Assembly: GCA_020344315.1 (NCBI GenBank)
Contig: CP070820.1
Span: forward strand, 653,325-702,598
Length of the DNA stretch: 49,274 nucleotides
Source of the DNA: Candidatus Bathyarchaeum sp.
GTDB lineage: Archaea > Thermoproteota > Bathyarchaeia > Bathyarchaeales > Bathyarchaeaceae
Direction of reading: 5' to 3'
Both the position numbers and the translations under genes were made by a program. The notes beneath the pieces were generated by a model. It did no database searches and had not been told where the DNA came from. It saw nothing but the letters and a program-made list of their open reading frames with translations. Shown one piece after another: positions 2,760-38,677 of the stretch; position 1 is the first letter of the stretch, and each line of letters begins with the position of its first letter.

Positions 2760-2866
2760 GCTCATAACTCCATCAGGTAAATAGTTTATTTCAGCGAAAC
2801 TGGTAAAGTTTAGGTCAATTATTAATATCTTATCCAAATAAGAAATAGGATGTGGGGGCTTTCAAA

Positions 2867-4855
2867 ATGAACCCAACCCAAGTGTCTTATCCAGGAGTTT
2901 ATATTGAAGAAGTCCCGAGTGGTGTAAGGGCTATCTCAGGGGTATCCACTTCTATTGCTGTATTCATAGGGTTAGCGAATTGTAGAAACGATCAAGTGTC
3001 AAAGACTGCATACACACCTCAACCTAAAAGGCTATTTTCCTATCCCCAGTATGAGCAAGAATTTGGTCCACCTCATCCTCAGTCAGATCTTGCCACATCC
3101 GTGCGTCTTTTCTTCCTAAATGGCGGTACTAAATGTTACGCCATCAATATCTGTGAAAGCAGCGCGGCTGACACTACATTACCTTCAGAAGATGATGTGG
3201 TAGACTTGTATACGGAAGGCATAAAGTCTCTTGATAGTATTGATATTTTCAATCTCCTTATAATCACAAAACTGGATTCAGATACGAGAAAAGATGGAGA
3301 TAATGATATTAAGGTCGGCATGTCAGATACCAAATACTTAAGCATTCTCAACGAAGCAAGTAAATATTGTAAAAAAAGACGTGCTTTCTTACTAATTGAT
3401 CCATTAGACAGATGGACTACTTGGCAAGACCCTATCAAAAAATCTGAATTATCAGAGCTCAGAAATAATGTTGAGACTGAGAACTCTGCAATATATTTCC
3501 CTCGGTTAGAACTCACAGAGTATGATCATGTACAGAAAAAAAGAGTGCCCAAGAAAATTGGTCCAGCTGCTGCAATTGCAGGCATCATAGCTGAAGTTGA
3601 TTCTCAATATGGAGTTTGGAAAGCACCTGCAGGAGTAAATACAATTCTCGAGGGAATAAAAGGAGTAGATATTCCACTTAACGATATGCAGAACGGCCTC
3701 CTGAATCTGCAAGCGATCAATTGTATTCGCCAATTTCAAACCGGAACAGTGTGCTGGGGTGCACGCACTGTTGCAGGCTACACGGATGGTGATTGGAAGT
3801 ATATTCCAATTCGCCGTTTAGCCTTGTACATAGAAGAGACCCTATATCGAGGAACGAAGTGGGTTGTATTTGAACCTAATGATGAAACTACATGGGCTGC
3901 CATCCGAGCTAATGTCAGAGCATTTATGATGAATCTGTTTATCCAAGGAGCCTTCCAAGGAACAAGTCCAAAGGAAGCTTTCTTTGTTAAATGTGATGGA
4001 GATACAACTACGGAATATCATCGCAAGATTGGGATTGTCAATATCATTGTTGGTTTTGCTCCATTAAAACCTGCAGAGTTTGTGATCTTACAAATTCAGC
4101 AACGCATACCCACACTGAAGATAACCCCGAGATATACTTGGGAAGATTTAGTGCTACCTGACGGTAAGAAAAAACAGCTAAGAGAAATCTGTGTGCGCGC
4201 AGATTCAAGAGTTTATGATGTGGGGGGCGTTGAAAAGCATTCCCTTCGTAAAGGTCTTAAATTTATGTTTTCTGGTCCCTCTGGAACTGGAAAGACTATG
4301 GCTGCTGAGGTTATGGCCAATGAGTTGAGGTTAGATTTGTTTAGGATTGATTTGTCTATGGTCGTTAGTAAGTATATTGGAGAGACGGAGAAGAATTTGA
4401 ACAGGATTTTCAATGATGCGGAAGAGAGTAATGTGATTTTGTTTTTTGATGAGGCTGATGCTCTGTTTGGGAAGAGGAGTGAAGTGAGGGATGCTGATGA
4501 TCGGTATAAAAATGAAGCGATTAATTATCTTCTTAATAAGATGGAGGAATATGAAGGAATTGTTATTCTTGCTATTAATTTGAGGAAATATGTGGATGAA
4601 GCCTTTTTAAGACGAATGCACTTCATTGTTGAATTTCCTTTTCCTAAGGAAGAGTATAGGCGTGAGATATGGAAGAAAGTTTTCAAAGAAAAGGCTCCTT
4701 TAAATGATGTTGACTTTATTTCTCTTTCGAAGCTGAAAGTAAGCGGTGGTGACATAAAGAGAATAGCGCTTACAGCAGCTTTTCTAGCAGCAAGAAATTC
4801 AGATAAGATAACACTGAAATATATTGTTAAGGCAGCAAAGAGGGAAACCCAGTAA
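2867..4855 (+). CDS. Contractile injection system tail-sheath protein fused to eCIS-type AAA+ ATPase domain
   Basis: Residues ~1-410 (from the ATG at 2867) are a phage/eCIS tail sheath: the start SYPGVYIEEVPSGVRAISGV, the middle GTVCWGARTVAGYTDGDWKY, and the C-terminal domain with ALYIEETLYRGTKWVVFEPN and VNIIVGFAPLKPAEFVILQI. The frame then continues, without a stop, into PRYTWEDLVLP and an AAA+ module like that of the eCIS-associated ATPase (Afp15/PVC15 type): Walker A GPSGTGKT at ~470-477, Walker B ILFFDEADALFG with D528/E529, then SKYIGETEKNL and RRMHF. The usual ATNLR of sensor 1 reads AINLR. The N-terminal part expected of that ATPase is absent, so the junction is ~413-420 (about 4103-4126). 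No tube, baseplate, spike or toxin gene is nearby. A GTG at 2852 is an alternative start; sheaths normally begin close to SYPGVYI, which favours 2867. Confidence 0.85.
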   Translation: MNPTQVSYPGVYIEEVPSGVRAISGVSTSIAVFIGLANCRNDQVSKTAYTPQPKRLFSYPQYEQEFGPPHPQSDLATSVRLFFLNGGTKCYAINICESSAADTTLPSEDDVVDLYTEGIKSLDSIDIFNLLIITKLDSDTRKDGDNDIKVGMSDTKYLSILNEASKYCKKRRAFLLIDPLDRWTTWQDPIKKSELSELRNNVETENSAIYFPRLELTEYDHVQKKRVPKKIGPAAAIAGIIAEVDSQYGVWKAPAGVNTILEGIKGVDIPLNDMQNGLLNLQAINCIRQFQTGTVCWGARTVAGYTDGDWKYIPIRRLALYIEETLYRGTKWVVFEPNDETTWAAIRANVRAFMMNLFIQGAFQGTSPKEAFFVKCDGDTTTEYHRKIGIVNIIVGFAPLKPAEFVILQIQQRIPTLKITPRYTWEDLVLPDGKKKQLREICVRADSRVYDVGGVEKHSLRKGLKFMFSGPSGTGKTMAAEVMANELRLDLFRIDLSMVVSKYIGETEKNLNRIFNDAEESNVILFFDEADALFGKRSEVRDADDRYKNEAINYLLNKMEEYEGIVILAINLRKYVDEAFLRRMHFIVEFPFPKEEYRREIWKKVFKEKAPLNDVDFISLSKLKVSGGDIKRIALTAAFLAARNSDKITLKYIVKAAKRETQ

Positions 4856-30160: not shown

Positions 30161-30586
30161 ATGAGCGAATGGAACATCGGAGTTGACGTTGTAGAAATTG
30201 CCCGTTTCGAGCGATTGAACTACTCAAGCAACAAACATTTTTACATGCGAGTCTTCACTCCGAAAGAGATTGAATATTGTTTATCCTTCAGCAGCCCAGC
30301 GCCCCATTTTGCTGCGAATTTTGCTGGAAAAGAAGCGGTCTACAAGGCAGTTAACAGGTTCTGCGATGTTAAAATTCACGATATCGAGATTCTCAGAGAT
30401 AAGTATGGAGCACCTAAAGTCAACCTAAACTTAAGTCGCGAAGAGAAGACTAGCCCCTTAAACGTGAAGGTTAGCATGTCCCACTCCTTATCCCATGCTG
30501 TCGCTTTTGCCGTTGCACAGAGTTCCACTAAAATAGCGAACGAACTTAACGTGAAAGCAGAGGCGGTATCTCCCAATGGATTCTGA
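30161..30586 (+). CDS. acpS: AcpS-type 4'-phosphopantetheinyl transferase (holo-ACP synthase)
   Basis: Moves phosphopantetheine from CoA to a serine of an acyl carrier protein. It has the family motifs in their standard places: GVDVVEIARFERL with metal-binding Asp9, FAGKEAVYKA with Glu58, and SMSHSLSHA near residue 110. 141 residues is slightly longer than the bacterial 120-130. AcpS is unusual in archaea, which do not make fatty acids on ACP. Here an ACP is encoded two genes downstream, giving a clear substrate. Its end overlaps the FkbH start by 11 bases. Confidence 0.9.
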   Translation: MSEWNIGVDVVEIARFERLNYSSNKHFYMRVFTPKEIEYCLSFSSPAPHFAANFAGKEAVYKAVNRFCDVKIHDIEILRDKYGAPKVNLNLSREEKTSPLNVKVSMSHSLSHAVAFAVAQSSTKIANELNVKAEAVSPNGF

Positions 30587-32441
30587 TGAAACATCACAGA
30601 AGAAAACCAGCGAACCAGTCAGTAGAACGCTAGAAAAACTGTTGAATCAGGTTCGAGAAGCGGCAAATCATCTGAACTACTGGAATGCCTACAAACGGAT
30701 TAAAAAGCTCGACCTAGAATCCCTCAATATCCCCGACGAAAAGAGGATAAAGGTGGCTCTGCTAAGCTCATTCACAATAGACCCCTTGGGCATATACCTC
30801 GATATTAAAAGCCGCCTCGCCCAATTGTATCCTGAAATATACATTGCACCATTTAACCAATACCAGCAGGAAATCCTTGACGAAAATAGCGGGTTATACG
30901 CCTTCAAACCAGACGTAATTATTTTGGCTGTTCAAGCAGATGTTTTGCTGAATGAGAATTTCATTTCAGATTTTGTAAAGTTATCTGACGTAGAGAAACA
31001 TCAGACAGAGATTAGCAATCGACTACAGGCGATCTTGTCCATGCTAACCTCTAGGACAGACGCTATTGTGTTGATTAACAACTTTATAGTTCCATCATTC
31101 ACTCCCTTCGGAATCCTAGATAACAAGGCGAAAAGTGGATTGCGGAGCTTCTTTCAGGGATTAAATCAGCGACTAGCAGAATTGTATAGGAAGAGCAATC
31201 AGGTTTACGTTGTTGATCTTGAAGGCGCTGCAAGCAAACATGGAAAGTCACGTTGCCTAGACCAGATGTTGTATTACAGGGGTTCTTTTCTTTTCAGCGA
31301 GTCCTTCCTACCCGTGATTGCAGACGAGTACATGGGATACATTAAGGCTCTGAAGAACCTCACAAGAAAGTGCATCGTATTAGATTTAGACAATGTACTC
31401 TGGGGCGGCATCATTGGCGAGGATGGAATCGAAGGAATCAAATTAGGAGTCGACTCGCCCGGAAACGCTTACAAAGACTTTCAGAGGGTCTTGCTGAGCT
31501 ACTACAATCGCGGAATCCTCTTGGCGATAAACAGCAAAAACAACCCTGATGATGCTATGAAGGCTATCAAGGAGCATCCTCACATGCTCTTACGCGAGAA
31601 ACATTTCGCAGCTATCAGAATTAACTGGCAGAACAAAGTCCAGAACATGATTGAACTGGCAAAGGAAATCAATATCGGATTCGATAGCATGGTCTTCATA
31701 GATGATAACCCCCATGAACGCGAACAGATTAAACAGGCGTTACCTCAGGTCTTGGTCGTAGACATGCCTTCTTCCCCGTTTCTGTATCGGCAAACCATGG
31801 AAAACATGAACGACTTCAACATCCTTGCGCTGACTGAAGAGGATAAGATGCGGGGAGAAATGTACCATGCAAGAAAAAAGCGGGAAGAACTTCGGGAATC
31901 AATCAGCACATTGGAAGATTTTCTGAAATCTTTAGAGATGAAAATCGTGATCAAGTATGCTGATGAGATGGGTATGCCAAGGATTGTGCGCATGGTGAAT
32001 AAGACAAACCAGTTTAATGCGACTACCCGTCGATATACCGATGTTGAAATTGGGAAGATGAAGGAAGCGACGGACCAATTTGACATTTACAGTCTGCAGG
32101 TTTCCGATAGATTAGGAGACGAGGGAATAGTTGGGGTGGCTATCGTCCGAAAAGAACCGAAAACATGGACTTTAGACTCGTTTCTCTTGAGTTGCCGTGT
32201 TATTGGGCGCAAAGTCGAGACAGCTTTCTTGGCAAAAATTGTGGAAGACGCGAAAGAACAAGGCGTTTCCACACTGGTTGGGGAGTATATTCCAACTCAA
32301 AAGAATGTCCCTGTTAAGAGCTTCTATTCTGATCATGGTTTTGAAGAATTTTCAAGGGAAGGAAACCTTTACAGGTGGAGGCTTGACTTGACTAAATCTA
32401 CATTAGAGATGCCTGAGTGGTTGGATGTCAAAAATGGCTAG
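30576..32441 (+). CDS. FkbH-like protein: HAD phosphatase-type glyceryl-ACP-forming enzyme with GNAT-like C-terminus
   Basis: 621 residues in three parts. Residues ~55-255 are an SGNH-like alpha/beta domain (VALLSSFTIDPLGIYLDIK, PDVIILAVQ). Then a HAD-IIIC domain has IVLDLDNVLWGGIIGEDG with Asp270 and Asp272, AINSKNNP, and FIDDNPHER with Asp376/Asp377. The end (~455-600) is GNAT-like: RIVRMVNKTNQFNATTRRYT and LSCRVIGRKVETAFL. FkbH enzymes take 1,3-bisphosphoglycerate, remove the phosphate and load glycerate on ACP as thioester for polyketide or polysaccharide use. The usual Thr after DLDN is Val, as in several family members. Overlaps on both sides show a tight operon with acpS and acp. Confidence 0.88.
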   Translation: MDSDETSQKKTSEPVSRTLEKLLNQVREAANHLNYWNAYKRIKKLDLESLNIPDEKRIKVALLSSFTIDPLGIYLDIKSRLAQLYPEIYIAPFNQYQQEILDENSGLYAFKPDVIILAVQADVLLNENFISDFVKLSDVEKHQTEISNRLQAILSMLTSRTDAIVLINNFIVPSFTPFGILDNKAKSGLRSFFQGLNQRLAELYRKSNQVYVVDLEGAASKHGKSRCLDQMLYYRGSFLFSESFLPVIADEYMGYIKALKNLTRKCIVLDLDNVLWGGIIGEDGIEGIKLGVDSPGNAYKDFQRVLLSYYNRGILLAINSKNNPDDAMKAIKEHPHMLLREKHFAAIRINWQNKVQNMIELAKEINIGFDSMVFIDDNPHEREQIKQALPQVLVVDMPSSPFLYRQTMENMNDFNILALTEEDKMRGEMYHARKKREELRESISTLEDFLKSLEMKIVIKYADEMGMPRIVRMVNKTNQFNATTRRYTDVEIGKMKEATDQFDIYSLQVSDRLGDEGIVGVAIVRKEPKTWTLDSFLLSCRVIGRKVETAFLAKIVEDAKEQGVSTLVGEYIPTQKNVPVKSFYSDHGFEEFSREGNLYRWRLDLTKSTLEMPEWLDVKNG

Positions 32442-32670
32442 TGCAGAGGTTAAACTGAAGGATATTCTGGCAAAGGTTTTGCTCATTGACAAGGTCAGTG
32501 ATGATATGTCCCGAAAGAGCGTGAAAGAATGGGATTCCATGGCGCATTTAATGCTGGTGAGCGAGATTGAATCTGCTTTTGAGGTTGCTATGAGTGACGA
32601 TGATATCATGGAGATTCAGACAGTAGGCGACATCAAGAATATACTGAAAAAACTGGGTATAACCATTTGA
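32425..32670 (+). CDS. Acyl carrier protein
   Basis: 81 residues, mostly helical and acidic, with the phosphopantetheine-accepting Ser38 in EWDSMAHLMLVSEIE, the form found in ACPs that partner FkbH enzymes (DSxxHL rather than the DSLD of fatty-acid ACP). The end is VGDIKNILKKLG, the fourth helix. It overlaps the FkbH gene by 17 bases. An ATG at 32434 is an alternative start that would shorten it by three residues. It presumably carries glycerate to an acceptor; no polyketide or fatty-acid synthase gene is present. Confidence 0.9.
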   Translation: MSKMASAEVKLKDILAKVLLIDKVSDDMSRKSVKEWDSMAHLMLVSEIESAFEVAMSDDDIMEIQTVGDIKNILKKLGITI

Positions 32671-32684
32671 ATTGAGCGCACCGC

Positions 32685-32707
32685 AGTTTCTGAGGTTCAA
32701 AGAAACT
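32685..32707. terminator. Small hairpin between convergent genes
   Basis: AGTTTC and GAAACT arms separated by 11 bases, placed between the acp stop (32670) and the acyltransferase stop (32706). It may serve transcripts from both sides; stem is short. Confidence 0.3.
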
Positions 32708-33164
32708 AAGTTTCCTCTTCTTCTCCGGGTTTCTTCAATTTTTTAACAGCACGTGCAGGGTTTCCCGCTACCATTGTGTATGGAGGGACATCTCTGCTCA
32801 CAACCGATCCGGCAGCAACAATCGCTCCCTCACCAATCGTGACCCCCGGAAGGATAATTGCTCCGGCAGCGAGCCAGACCCCCCGCTTGATTGTAACTTT
32901 TTTGGGTCCTTCATGATAGATTTTGAATCGTTGATGGAATGGACTTGCGCTGGAGTGAGCCATGATGCTTACTCCCGGACCGATGCTGGCTTCATCTCCG
33001 ATCTCAATGTATTCTGGGTACTCCCCGTCCATCATTACTAGAAAGCCGATGTAGACGTTTCTGCCAACCTTAACTCCACATTTGCGGTAGACACTAGCGC
33101 GGAACTGGTAGGCTGGTGCCAACCATGCAAGAATTCTAAGCAGTCGCCCCAATAATTTGCCCAT
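32706..33164 (-). CDS. Left-handed beta-helix (hexapeptide) acyltransferase
   Basis: Hexapeptide-repeat turns run through VGRNVYIGFLVMMDG, IEIGDEASIGPGVSIMAH, and VTIKRGVWLAAGAIILPGVTIGEGAIVAAGSVVSRDVPPY, ending TMVAGNPARAVKKL, the standard closure of maltose/galactoside O-acetyltransferase relatives. The catalytic His is in SIMAHSS. It transfers an acyl (normally acetyl) group to a sugar. The start at 33164 is preferred because GAGGT stands six bases upstream; the longer form from 33215 would overlap the deacetylase gene by 26 bases. It is convergent with the ACP operon, which could conceivably provide its acyl donor. Confidence 0.85.
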   Translation of the reverse strand: MGKLLGRLLRILAWLAPAYQFRASVYRKCGVKVGRNVYIGFLVMMDGEYPEYIEIGDEASIGPGVSIMAHSSASPFHQRFKIYHEGPKKVTIKRGVWLAAGAIILPGVTIGEGAIVAAGSVVSRDVPPYTMVAGNPARAVKKLKKPGEEEET

Positions 33165-33189: not shown

Positions 33190-34077
33190 TTAAAATAAAC
33201 GTTGAAGGTAGTCAAAGAAAGAGAAGTTATCTATATCACCGGTTAATAGGCAGCAGAAAGAGGCGTCATCTTTCCAGCTGCCATGCTCACTCCAATAGTT
33301 CACTGCTTCATTAACTGTTGGAAACCAGCCATTCAACTCTGTTCCATACTCCACAACATGTTTCAATGCATCGACATATTGTGGCTGTCCTATCCGGATG
33401 GGATGAAGATCAAACATAACCACGCCATGTTTTTCACTAGCCCTTCTGATGACACGCCGCAAGGTTTCTGCTATCTGGTGGCTACTGAAGCCCTGTATGT
33501 CAATCATTAAGTCGTCTGACCATCTGTTGAGGGGAATGCAGACGAAACTTGAATCGTGGTTGTCTATTTTAACTCGAAATGGAGAACTGCCCTCCCTATG
33601 TTTAGGATTGTAGCCGATTCCAATGTCCCAGAGAAAACCATGTTTCTCTACGAGTTTAGGCGTATCTTCTGCGTAGGTGTTGTAGGGTGCCCGAAATCCA
33701 TACACTGGAATACTAATTGCTCTGAAGGCGTCAAGAGCCTTCTCGATATCATCATCCTGTTGCTGTTCTGTCAGGTAAGAATAATTGAGGTGCTTGAAAC
33801 CGTGAACGGCAACCTCATGTCCACGGCTTAGAATTTCACGGGTTAACCCGGGGTCTTTTGCTGCAACAGATGCGACCATGGGGAAAGTGAATTTTGCCTT
33901 ATGGGGTTCAAGTGCATCAAACATATTTCTTAATAGGATGCTGAATGGAATAGAGTGGAATCGGAACATGCGGAGAGCCTGGCTCAGAATCTTTTTTCCT
34001 CGCCTATTTTTCAGGTATTTTATCCATGATACGCTTAACCGCACTTGAATCCCCTTCCAAAAAGGATTACAGAACAT
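33190..34077 (-). CDS. Polysaccharide deacetylase (NodB fold), apparently circularly permuted
   Basis: 295 residues. NodB motifs 2-5 occur in order: HGFKH with His92/His96 (metal), GFRAPYNTY (motif 3), FLWDIGI (motif 4), MFDLHP with His225 (motif 5). Motif 1 (TFDD-like, with the catalytic Asp) is not near the N-terminus. Instead the last 20 residues read CLLTGDIDNFSFFDYLQRL, a good match to a motif-1 strand (T-x-D-x-D). So strand 1 of the barrel seems to be at the C-terminus. A stop codon (TAA) lies six codons before the ATG, excluding a longer N-terminus. It probably removes N-acetyl groups from a surface glycan. It is followed by the acyltransferase gene, 25 bases on. Confidence 0.8.
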   Translation of the reverse strand: MFCNPFWKGIQVRLSVSWIKYLKNRRGKKILSQALRMFRFHSIPFSILLRNMFDALEPHKAKFTFPMVASVAAKDPGLTREILSRGHEVAVHGFKHLNYSYLTEQQQDDDIEKALDAFRAISIPVYGFRAPYNTYAEDTPKLVEKHGFLWDIGIGYNPKHREGSSPFRVKIDNHDSSFVCIPLNRWSDDLMIDIQGFSSHQIAETLRRVIRRASEKHGVVMFDLHPIRIGQPQYVDALKHVVEYGTELNGWFPTVNEAVNYWSEHGSWKDDASFCCLLTGDIDNFSFFDYLQRLF

Positions 34078-37576: not shown

Positions 37577-38677
37577 TTACCACACTATCGCATAGTAGAC
37601 TATTAGTTTACCTAGATAATAATCGCCAACAGATATGGAGACGATTTGGTCATTTTGAGGTTCTATGAACATTATACCGGTTTCTATAACATCGAAACAA
37701 ATAATCGCATGTGCAGTATCATCAGCAAACGCCATGTAAACAAAACCAACTCTATAGCCTTGGTAAAAGGCATTTGCTTCGAAGTCTGCAGCAAAATTGA
37801 AACATGTATAATCTTGGGTGTATGTATTCTGATCAGTTGTGTCTGACGCGATAAACTCAATTGCTTCTGCGTAAGTTGGATCCCTTATGGTATAGCCTAC
37901 TCCCGCACTATCGTCTAATCCTTGAGTGTACCCTTCATCATACCCGAGCAGGTAGCCTACAGCTTCACCCGCGGCATAACCTGTGTCATAACTCAGAAGT
38001 ACTTCAGCTTCCAGTGTTGCAATTTCTGCTTCTAAGGTTGAAACTTGAGACTCTAGGGCGGTTTTGTCATTTTCTAGGGTAGTTACTTCGGATTGGAGAC
38101 TGGAAACCTGAGATTCCAGAGCGGTTTTTTCGTTTTCTAGAGTAGTTTTGTCGTTTTCTAGTGTCGTTACTTCGGATTGGAGACTGGAAACCTGAGACTC
38201 TAGCGAAGATTTTTCATTGCTTAGTGTCGTTACCTCGGATTGCAAATCGGAAACCTGAAACTCTAGGTTAGTCTTATCATCTTCCAATGAGGCTTTCTCA
38301 GATTGCAGATTTACAACCTGAGATTCCAGAGTGGTCTTTTCATTGGTTAGTGATGTTTTTTCGGATTGGAGACTGGAAACCTGAGACTCCAGAGCGGTTT
38401 TATCGTTTTCTAGGGTAGTTACTTCGGATTGTAAACCTGAAACCTGTGATTCCAGCGCAATCTTGGAGTTATTTATTGAAGTAACTTCGGATTGAAGGCT
38501 CAACACTTGGGTCTCAAGGGAAAGGTTCTCGTTTTCTAACGAAGTTACTTCTGATTGGAGACCTGAAATGGTTGTTTGCAAGTCATTGATCTGTAGGTTC
38601 AAAAAAACAGTTGCAGAAATCGCTATAGCTGATACAACTACAACTGCAAGAATTAAAACCCTGTTTGTATTAGACAA
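37577..38677 (-). CDS. Membrane-anchored coiled-coil stalk protein with a C-terminal Cys/His domain
   Basis: 366 residues. An N-terminal helix (VLILAVVVVSAIAISATVFL) anchors it. Residues 28-228 are a coiled coil of 21-residue repeats (LESQVSSLQSEVTTLEN type). A Gly/Tyr stretch GYAAGEAVGYLLGYDEGY follows. The last ~110 residues form a globular domain with Cys292 in DYTCFNFAADFEANA, His323 in DTAHAIICFDV and Glu339 in GIMFIEPQND, the order of a transglutaminase/papain-like cysteine hydrolase or a degenerate binding version. The domain would stand away from the membrane on a long stalk, outside the cell. Catalysis is an inference. AT-rich gene-free DNA (37291-37576) follows its stop. Confidence 0.75.
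   Translation of the reverse strand: MSNTNRVLILAVVVVSAIAISATVFLNLQINDLQTTISGLQSEVTSLENENLSLETQVLSLQSEVTSINNSKIALESQVSGLQSEVTTLENDKTALESQVSSLQSEKTSLTNEKTTLESQVVNLQSEKASLEDDKTNLEFQVSDLQSEVTTLSNEKSSLESQVSSLQSEVTTLENDKTTLENEKTALESQVSSLQSEVTTLENDKTALESQVSTLEAEIATLEAEVLLSYDTGYAAGEAVGYLLGYDEGYTQGLDDSAGVGYTIRDPTYAEAIEFIASDTTDQNTYTQDYTCFNFAADFEANAFYQGYRVGFVYMAFADDTAHAIICFDVIETGIMFIEPQNDQIVSISVGDYYLGKLIVYYAIVW
37994..38518 (-). repeat. Tandem 63-bp repeats encoding 21-residue coiled-coil units
   Basis: About eight units beginning L-E-(S/T/F)-Q-V with spacing of 21 residues (three heptads), at residues 54, 75, 96, 117, 138, 159, 187 and 208. One unit is extended by a single heptad (LENEKTA), showing growth or loss in heptad steps. 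Several units are nearly identical in DNA, so the array is probably unstable in length and prone to assembly error. Confidence 0.85.

Follow-up and report, generated by a model that had tools for sequence, protein, structure and literature searches.

FkbH proteins transfer a glyceryl group from 1,3-bisphosphoglycerate to an acyl carrier protein (ACP) (PMC7489565). Two bacterial O-antigen systems are also relevant: in F. psychrophilum, a PglD-like acyltransferase is predicted to acylate an amino sugar with a group taken from a dedicated ACP (PMC6519341), and the O-antigen of Pragia fontium bears a D-glyceroyl amide substituent (PMC10609480). The open-licence literature yielded nothing relevant on FkbH from archaea or from O-antigen clusters, and an earlier description is possible. 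To our knowledge, archaea are held to lack ACP-dependent chemistry. The few ACP genes present in archaea have been ascribed to lateral transfer (PMC3533463).

The window, which is the whole 49,274-nucleotide stretch of Candidatus Bathyarchaeum sp. DNA analysed here, contains acpS, fkbH and acp as three overlapping open reading frames on the plus strand, with overlaps of 11 nt and 17 nt (Table 1). AcpS matches the ACPS family at 1.7e-14 and TIGR00516 with 69.5 bits (cut-off 59.8), and its Mg-binding Asp and Glu are present in the GVD and KEA motifs. FkbH matches TIGR01686 over the whole FkbH domain (2.1e-100; 336 bits against a cut-off of 146.65) in addition to FkbH_N, and 3slr (BF1531) is a relative in the PDB. 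The HAD DxD motif (DLDN; D270 and D272 in the window protein) and Cys540 (SCRVIGR) are invariant in the six Bathyarchaeia cassettes described below, and the SCRxxGR motif, whose Cys we take to be the residue that carries the glyceryl group, is found at all 31 archaeal cassette loci. The ACP matches the PP-binding family with 26.6 bits (cut-off 20.8); its assignment as a fatty-acid ACP equivalog was rejected, as the TIGR00517 score of 21.3 bits lies under the cut-off of 70.45. From these matches, the fkbH product is predicted to be a glyceryl-ACP synthase that uses 1,3-bisphosphoglycerate. Genes for PGK and GAPDH, enzymes that form or consume this expected substrate, lie in the same window 9-11 kb downstream of the operon, which indicates that 1,3-bisphosphoglycerate is available.

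Table 1. Positions of the features discussed, numbered from the first letter of the window.
Feature	Position	Strand	Details
acpS, holo-ACP synthase (phosphopantetheinyl transferase)	30161..30586	+	141 aa; PF01648, TIGR00516; GVD and KEA motifs
fkbH, FkbH_N + HAD-IIIC phosphatase + C-terminal acyltransferase-like region	30576..32441	+	621 aa; TIGR01686, PF21211
acp, stand-alone carrier protein	32425..32670	+	81 aa; PF00550; attachment Ser in EWDSMAHL
LbH, hexapeptide acyltransferase, maltose/galactoside acetyltransferase-like	32706..33161	-	PF00132
NodB/CE4-like de-N-acetylase	33190..34077	-	Polysacc_deac_1 (PF01522), 59.6 bits against a cut-off of 23.1
ORF with phage tail-sheath domains (residues ~205-417) and C-terminal AAA ATPase (472-596)	2852..4855	+	667 aa
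Secreted-looking protein, long coiled-coil of near-repeats	37577..38677	-	SLQSEVTTLENDK

Two genes encoding an acyltransferase of the hexapeptide type (LbH) and a NodB-like protein are convergent with the operon. The LbH frame opens with a TTG at 33215, and the start is most likely the ATG at 33161, where all relatives start. LbH is the most conserved member of the cassette, with 75-93% identity to the proteins of the five other Bathyarchaeia cassettes, and its relatives in the PDB are maltose/galactoside O-acetyltransferases. On the basis of its family, LbH is predicted to transfer an ACP-bound acyl group to a sugar; a heptaprenylglyceryl-phosphate O-acetyltransferase was considered and rejected (NF058585, 89 bits, under the cut-off of 300). 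The start of the NodB-like gene is probably the GTG at 34044 rather than the ATG at 34077. In the NodB-like protein, motif 2 (HGFKH), motif 3 (GFRAPYN) and HPIR are all present, and motif 1 (TFDDG-like) is found at the N-terminus in none of the six Bathyarchaeia cassette proteins. Their C-terminus carries an invariant TGDIDN, which is (L/S)(T/S)GD(I/V)D-like in the relatives from another family of the class (f15). The AF2 model (pLDDT 85) places a strand at the C-terminal TGDIDN, and Foldseek reports a resemblance to PuuE/CE4. The protein is likely a circularly permuted CE4 enzyme in which TGDIDN may replace motif 1; a doubled-profile hhalign alignment failed to bridge the junction.

The window genome, a single contig of 1.56 Mb, contains one PF00550 match and one FkbH, and a second carrier domain that could serve a PKS, an NRPS or a type II fatty-acid synthase was not detected with this model. 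KS, PKS or NRPS partners are likewise not seen among the genes neighbouring the operon. At 0.443, the GC content of the cassette matches the 0.444 of the window, so that a recent lateral acquisition is unsupported. The observation made in the preliminary description is thus confirmed, in that the three overlapping genes each exceed a curated cut-off with intact catalytic motifs, the facing genes encode the acyltransferase and polysaccharide deacetylase that it named, and PKS or NRPS companions are lacking both in the neighbourhood and, as judged by PP-binding domains, in the genome. Elsewhere in the window, the ORF with tail-sheath and AAA ATPase domains possibly represents a fused contractile-injection component, and a secreted-looking coiled-coil protein is encoded (Table 1).

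Among 257 Bathyarchaeia genomes, FkbH exceeds the family cut-off in eight. In six of these, which belong to two families, fkbH-acp faces LbH-NodB in a conserved convergent order. An acpS gene lies ahead of fkbH in five of these cassettes; none was found on the sixth contig, which is short. Within the class, proteins strongly matching NodB and LbH of the cassette are restricted to these six genomes and f15, where LbH and NodB are adjacent in three genomes (loci L069, L070 and L071) and a fourth encodes at least the NodB-like protein. FkbH and a detectable ACP are absent from the f15 genomes with LbH-NodB, which indicates that the two proteins do not always need a carrier or glyceryl-ACP. Two of these three f15 pairs lie near ABC transporter genes. 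Three Bathyarchaeia genomes have the cassette flanked by topA on one side and aglB, which encodes the oligosaccharyltransferase, on the other, and its orientation there is reversed from one family to the other. The window genome likewise has topA and aglB as neighbours, with no cassette between them, and its aglB is ~613 kb from the cassette, which indicates that the cassette changes place. Its link to aglB is suggestive only. A second type of archaeal FkbH locus, VOC-FkbH-ACP (L026, 5528-7871), has an aminoglycoside N-acetyltransferase-like protein, GFO/IDH oxidoreductases and PGA_cap as partners, and its genome (G172) also contains a second ACP. A long-branched, divergent FkbH with 31% identity is present in the window's own genus with no cassette (L025, 16806-18650).

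In a phylum sample of 398 genomes, FkbH was found in one further family (f29), which is assigned to the ammonia-oxidising archaea because archaeal AmoA is present in all eight of its genomes tested. FkbH occurs in 26 of 151 f29 genomes, and 26 loci were read, 25 intact and one broken. The intact loci all contain FkbH, ACP, LbH and NodB, and AcpS is present in 24 of the 25; the broken one (L145 in G458) has a fragmented FkbH with LbH and NodB absent nearby and represents a decayed cassette. In f29, LbH-NodB is divergent from FkbH, whereas it is convergent in Bathyarchaeia, and NodB is of the canonical DUF3473 type, so the same content has been kept despite a different arrangement and NodB subfamily. 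Where f29 loci were examined one gene at a time, the surrounding genes encode nucleotidyltransferases (NTP_transferase), GDP_Man_Dehyd epimerases, DegT aminotransferases and glycosyltransferases. The set is therefore present at 31 archaeal loci in two classes (six from Bathyarchaeia and 25 from the AmoA family), which is more than chance would give and shows that it is not peculiar to the window genome.

PF00550 was detected solely in genomes that have FkbH; it has no match in at least 13 Bathyarchaeia without an above-cut-off FkbH (four f15 genomes included), in a genome with a divergent FkbH (G004), or in seven AmoA-family genomes without FkbH. As the model missed the divergent ACPs encoded in two f29 genomes, absence by this model is not absolute. 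In the FkbH tree, the archaeal cassette proteins group together (97/98), apart from the sampled bacterial rows; the group also includes a divergent FkbH from Bathyarchaeia on a long branch. The bacterial sample is small, and the clade support is provisional.

A sixth function, overlooked in the preliminary description, accompanies the set. In five of the six Bathyarchaeia cassettes, a VOC (Glyoxalase_4) gene adjoins NodB on the same strand, upstream of NodB. A loss of this gene from the window genome was ruled out, since an orthologue with 69% identity sits ~176 kb from the cassette (C1:862680-863075). Among the 25 intact AmoA-family loci, a MaoC-like hydratase is encoded in 16 and a VOC protein in nine, with both in none, which is the pattern expected if the two perform the same step. 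Of the 16 MaoC proteins, 14 have an intact hydratase-2 motif (GDxNPxH). The locus L092 encodes an additional SDR (assigned by Pfam), and the L143 operon contains an unannotated ORF of similar size.

Taken as a unit, AcpS, FkbH, ACP, VOC or MaoC, NodB and LbH rather probably form a six-function module for ACP-dependent glycan acylation, and the three genes that the preliminary description treated as a complete set are only part of it. As for the check proposed there, acpS, fkbH, acp, LbH and NodB show conserved co-occurrence across two classes of archaea, and do so within glycan clusters. From the gene identities, motifs, co-occurrence and glycan context observed, we infer each reaction, the exact acyl group and the acceptor. 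AcpS would convert the dedicated ACP to its holo form, and FkbH would take 1,3-bisphosphoglycerate, remove the phosphate and load a D-glyceryl unit onto the ACP. The VOC protein, or the MaoC-like protein in other archaea, may epimerise or dehydrate the C3 unit on the carrier. The NodB-like enzyme would de-N-acetylate an amino sugar in the precursor of a surface glycan, and LbH would then place the C3 acyl group on the exposed amine. It is quite possible, and is proposed here tentatively, that this constitutes a hitherto unrecognised archaeal pathway. Its lineage-restricted ACP system would have the sole task of turning a glycolytic intermediate into a C3 acyl unit, whether glyceryl, pyruvyl or lactyl, and this unit would N-acylate de-N-acetylated sugars either of surface glycans or of N-glycans transferred by AglB. 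VOC and MaoC would be interchangeable tailoring enzymes.

The same pathway may deliver a group other than D-glyceryl, a serious possibility that falls just short of being probable. The VOC or MaoC protein would then dehydrate glyceryl-ACP to enolpyruvyl- or pyruvyl-ACP, which an SDR, where present, would convert to lactyl-ACP, or would epimerise it to L-glyceryl. The presence of one or the other of these mutually exclusive proteins in every intact set suggests a modification of the glyceryl unit while it is bound to the carrier, and the intact GDxNPxH motifs, the SDR of L092 and the similarly sized ORF of L143 point the same way; both folds are able to abstract the alpha proton of a thioester. 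Against this, some FkbH loci in bacteria have neither VOC nor MaoC next to them, and in the window genome the VOC gene lies apart from the operon. Given the VOC or MaoC-like partner, the group delivered is perhaps not the plain glyceryl of the glycan-glycerylation pathway in the preliminary description.

The f15 pairs, with neither FkbH nor detectable ACP, are the main caution for the module reading, and they also suggest that LbH and NodB could be an independent de-N-acetylase/O-acetyltransferase pair that acts on glycans, with acpS-fkbH-acp supplying C3-ACP for another product, for instance the head group of a polar lipid or a small molecule. In line with such a separation, the enzymes most similar to LbH are acetyl-CoA-dependent acetyltransferases. 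We consider the separation unlikely, as the two halves occur together at 31 loci in two classes and two gene orders, and both lie within nucleotide-sugar clusters in AmoA-positive archaea. Against the module, it also counts that the LbH relatives of known structure use acetyl-CoA, that the NodB-like protein is without motif 1 in the usual place, and that the window cassette does not adjoin glycosyltransferases. A different origin, as the orphan remnant of a laterally acquired operon for a polyketide-type glyceryl or methoxymalonyl extender unit, is already disfavoured and highly improbable. FkbH with ACP is a known bacterial extender-unit set (PMC7489565) and occurs at plasmid loci, and archaeal ACP genes have been attributed to lateral transfer (PMC3533463); against this, the motifs are intact, the protein is conserved across lineages, the ACP is the sole carrier domain detected in the genome, the GC content equals that of the surroundings, and the archaeal cassette FkbHs group apart from the bacterial rows sampled. 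The cassette is an archaeal variant of FkbH/ACP chemistry that is conserved as a module and is, most likely, devoted to surface glycans. It would give a concrete reason, other than fatty acids, for archaea to keep an ACP with its activating enzyme, and it predicts that the surface glycans of ammonia-oxidising archaea, some of which are in culture, bear an undescribed acyl decoration.

A comparison with known systems reveals both shared elements and differences. The cassette resembles the polyketide FkbH/ACP systems (tetronates, methoxymalonyl-ACP) in its adjacent FkbH and stand-alone ACP and in the catalytic motifs, whereas it is without KS, PKS, FabH-like and oxidising dehydrogenase genes and has its own AcpS, LbH and NodB partners. 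With O-antigen N-acylation (WfpD/WfpG of F. psychrophilum; D-glyceroyl-Qui4N of Pragia fontium), it shares a dedicated ACP, an LbH protein and the glycan setting; however, a type II fatty-acid-like route, rather than FkbH, is the predicted source of the acyl group there, and an aminotransferase takes the place of the de-N-acetylase that is the likely source of the amine in archaea. The ACP-FkbH-MBOAT-VOC-acyltransferase cluster on a plasmid of Rhodobacteraceae SC52 shares FkbH, ACP, VOC and an acyltransferase with the cassette, and the FkbH-ACP-WcbI cluster of Niveispirillum shares FkbH and ACP. Both have glycan or sulfotransferase surroundings, and they differ in their MBOAT or WcbI enzymes, in the absence of NodB and in an FkbH of only ~33-35% identity. 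The interpretation in the preliminary description is partly supported. Since FkbH and ACP are also found together in glycan clusters of bacteria, the principle behind the glycan-glycerylation pathway that it considered new to archaea is not new, and the novelty lies in the archaeal module.
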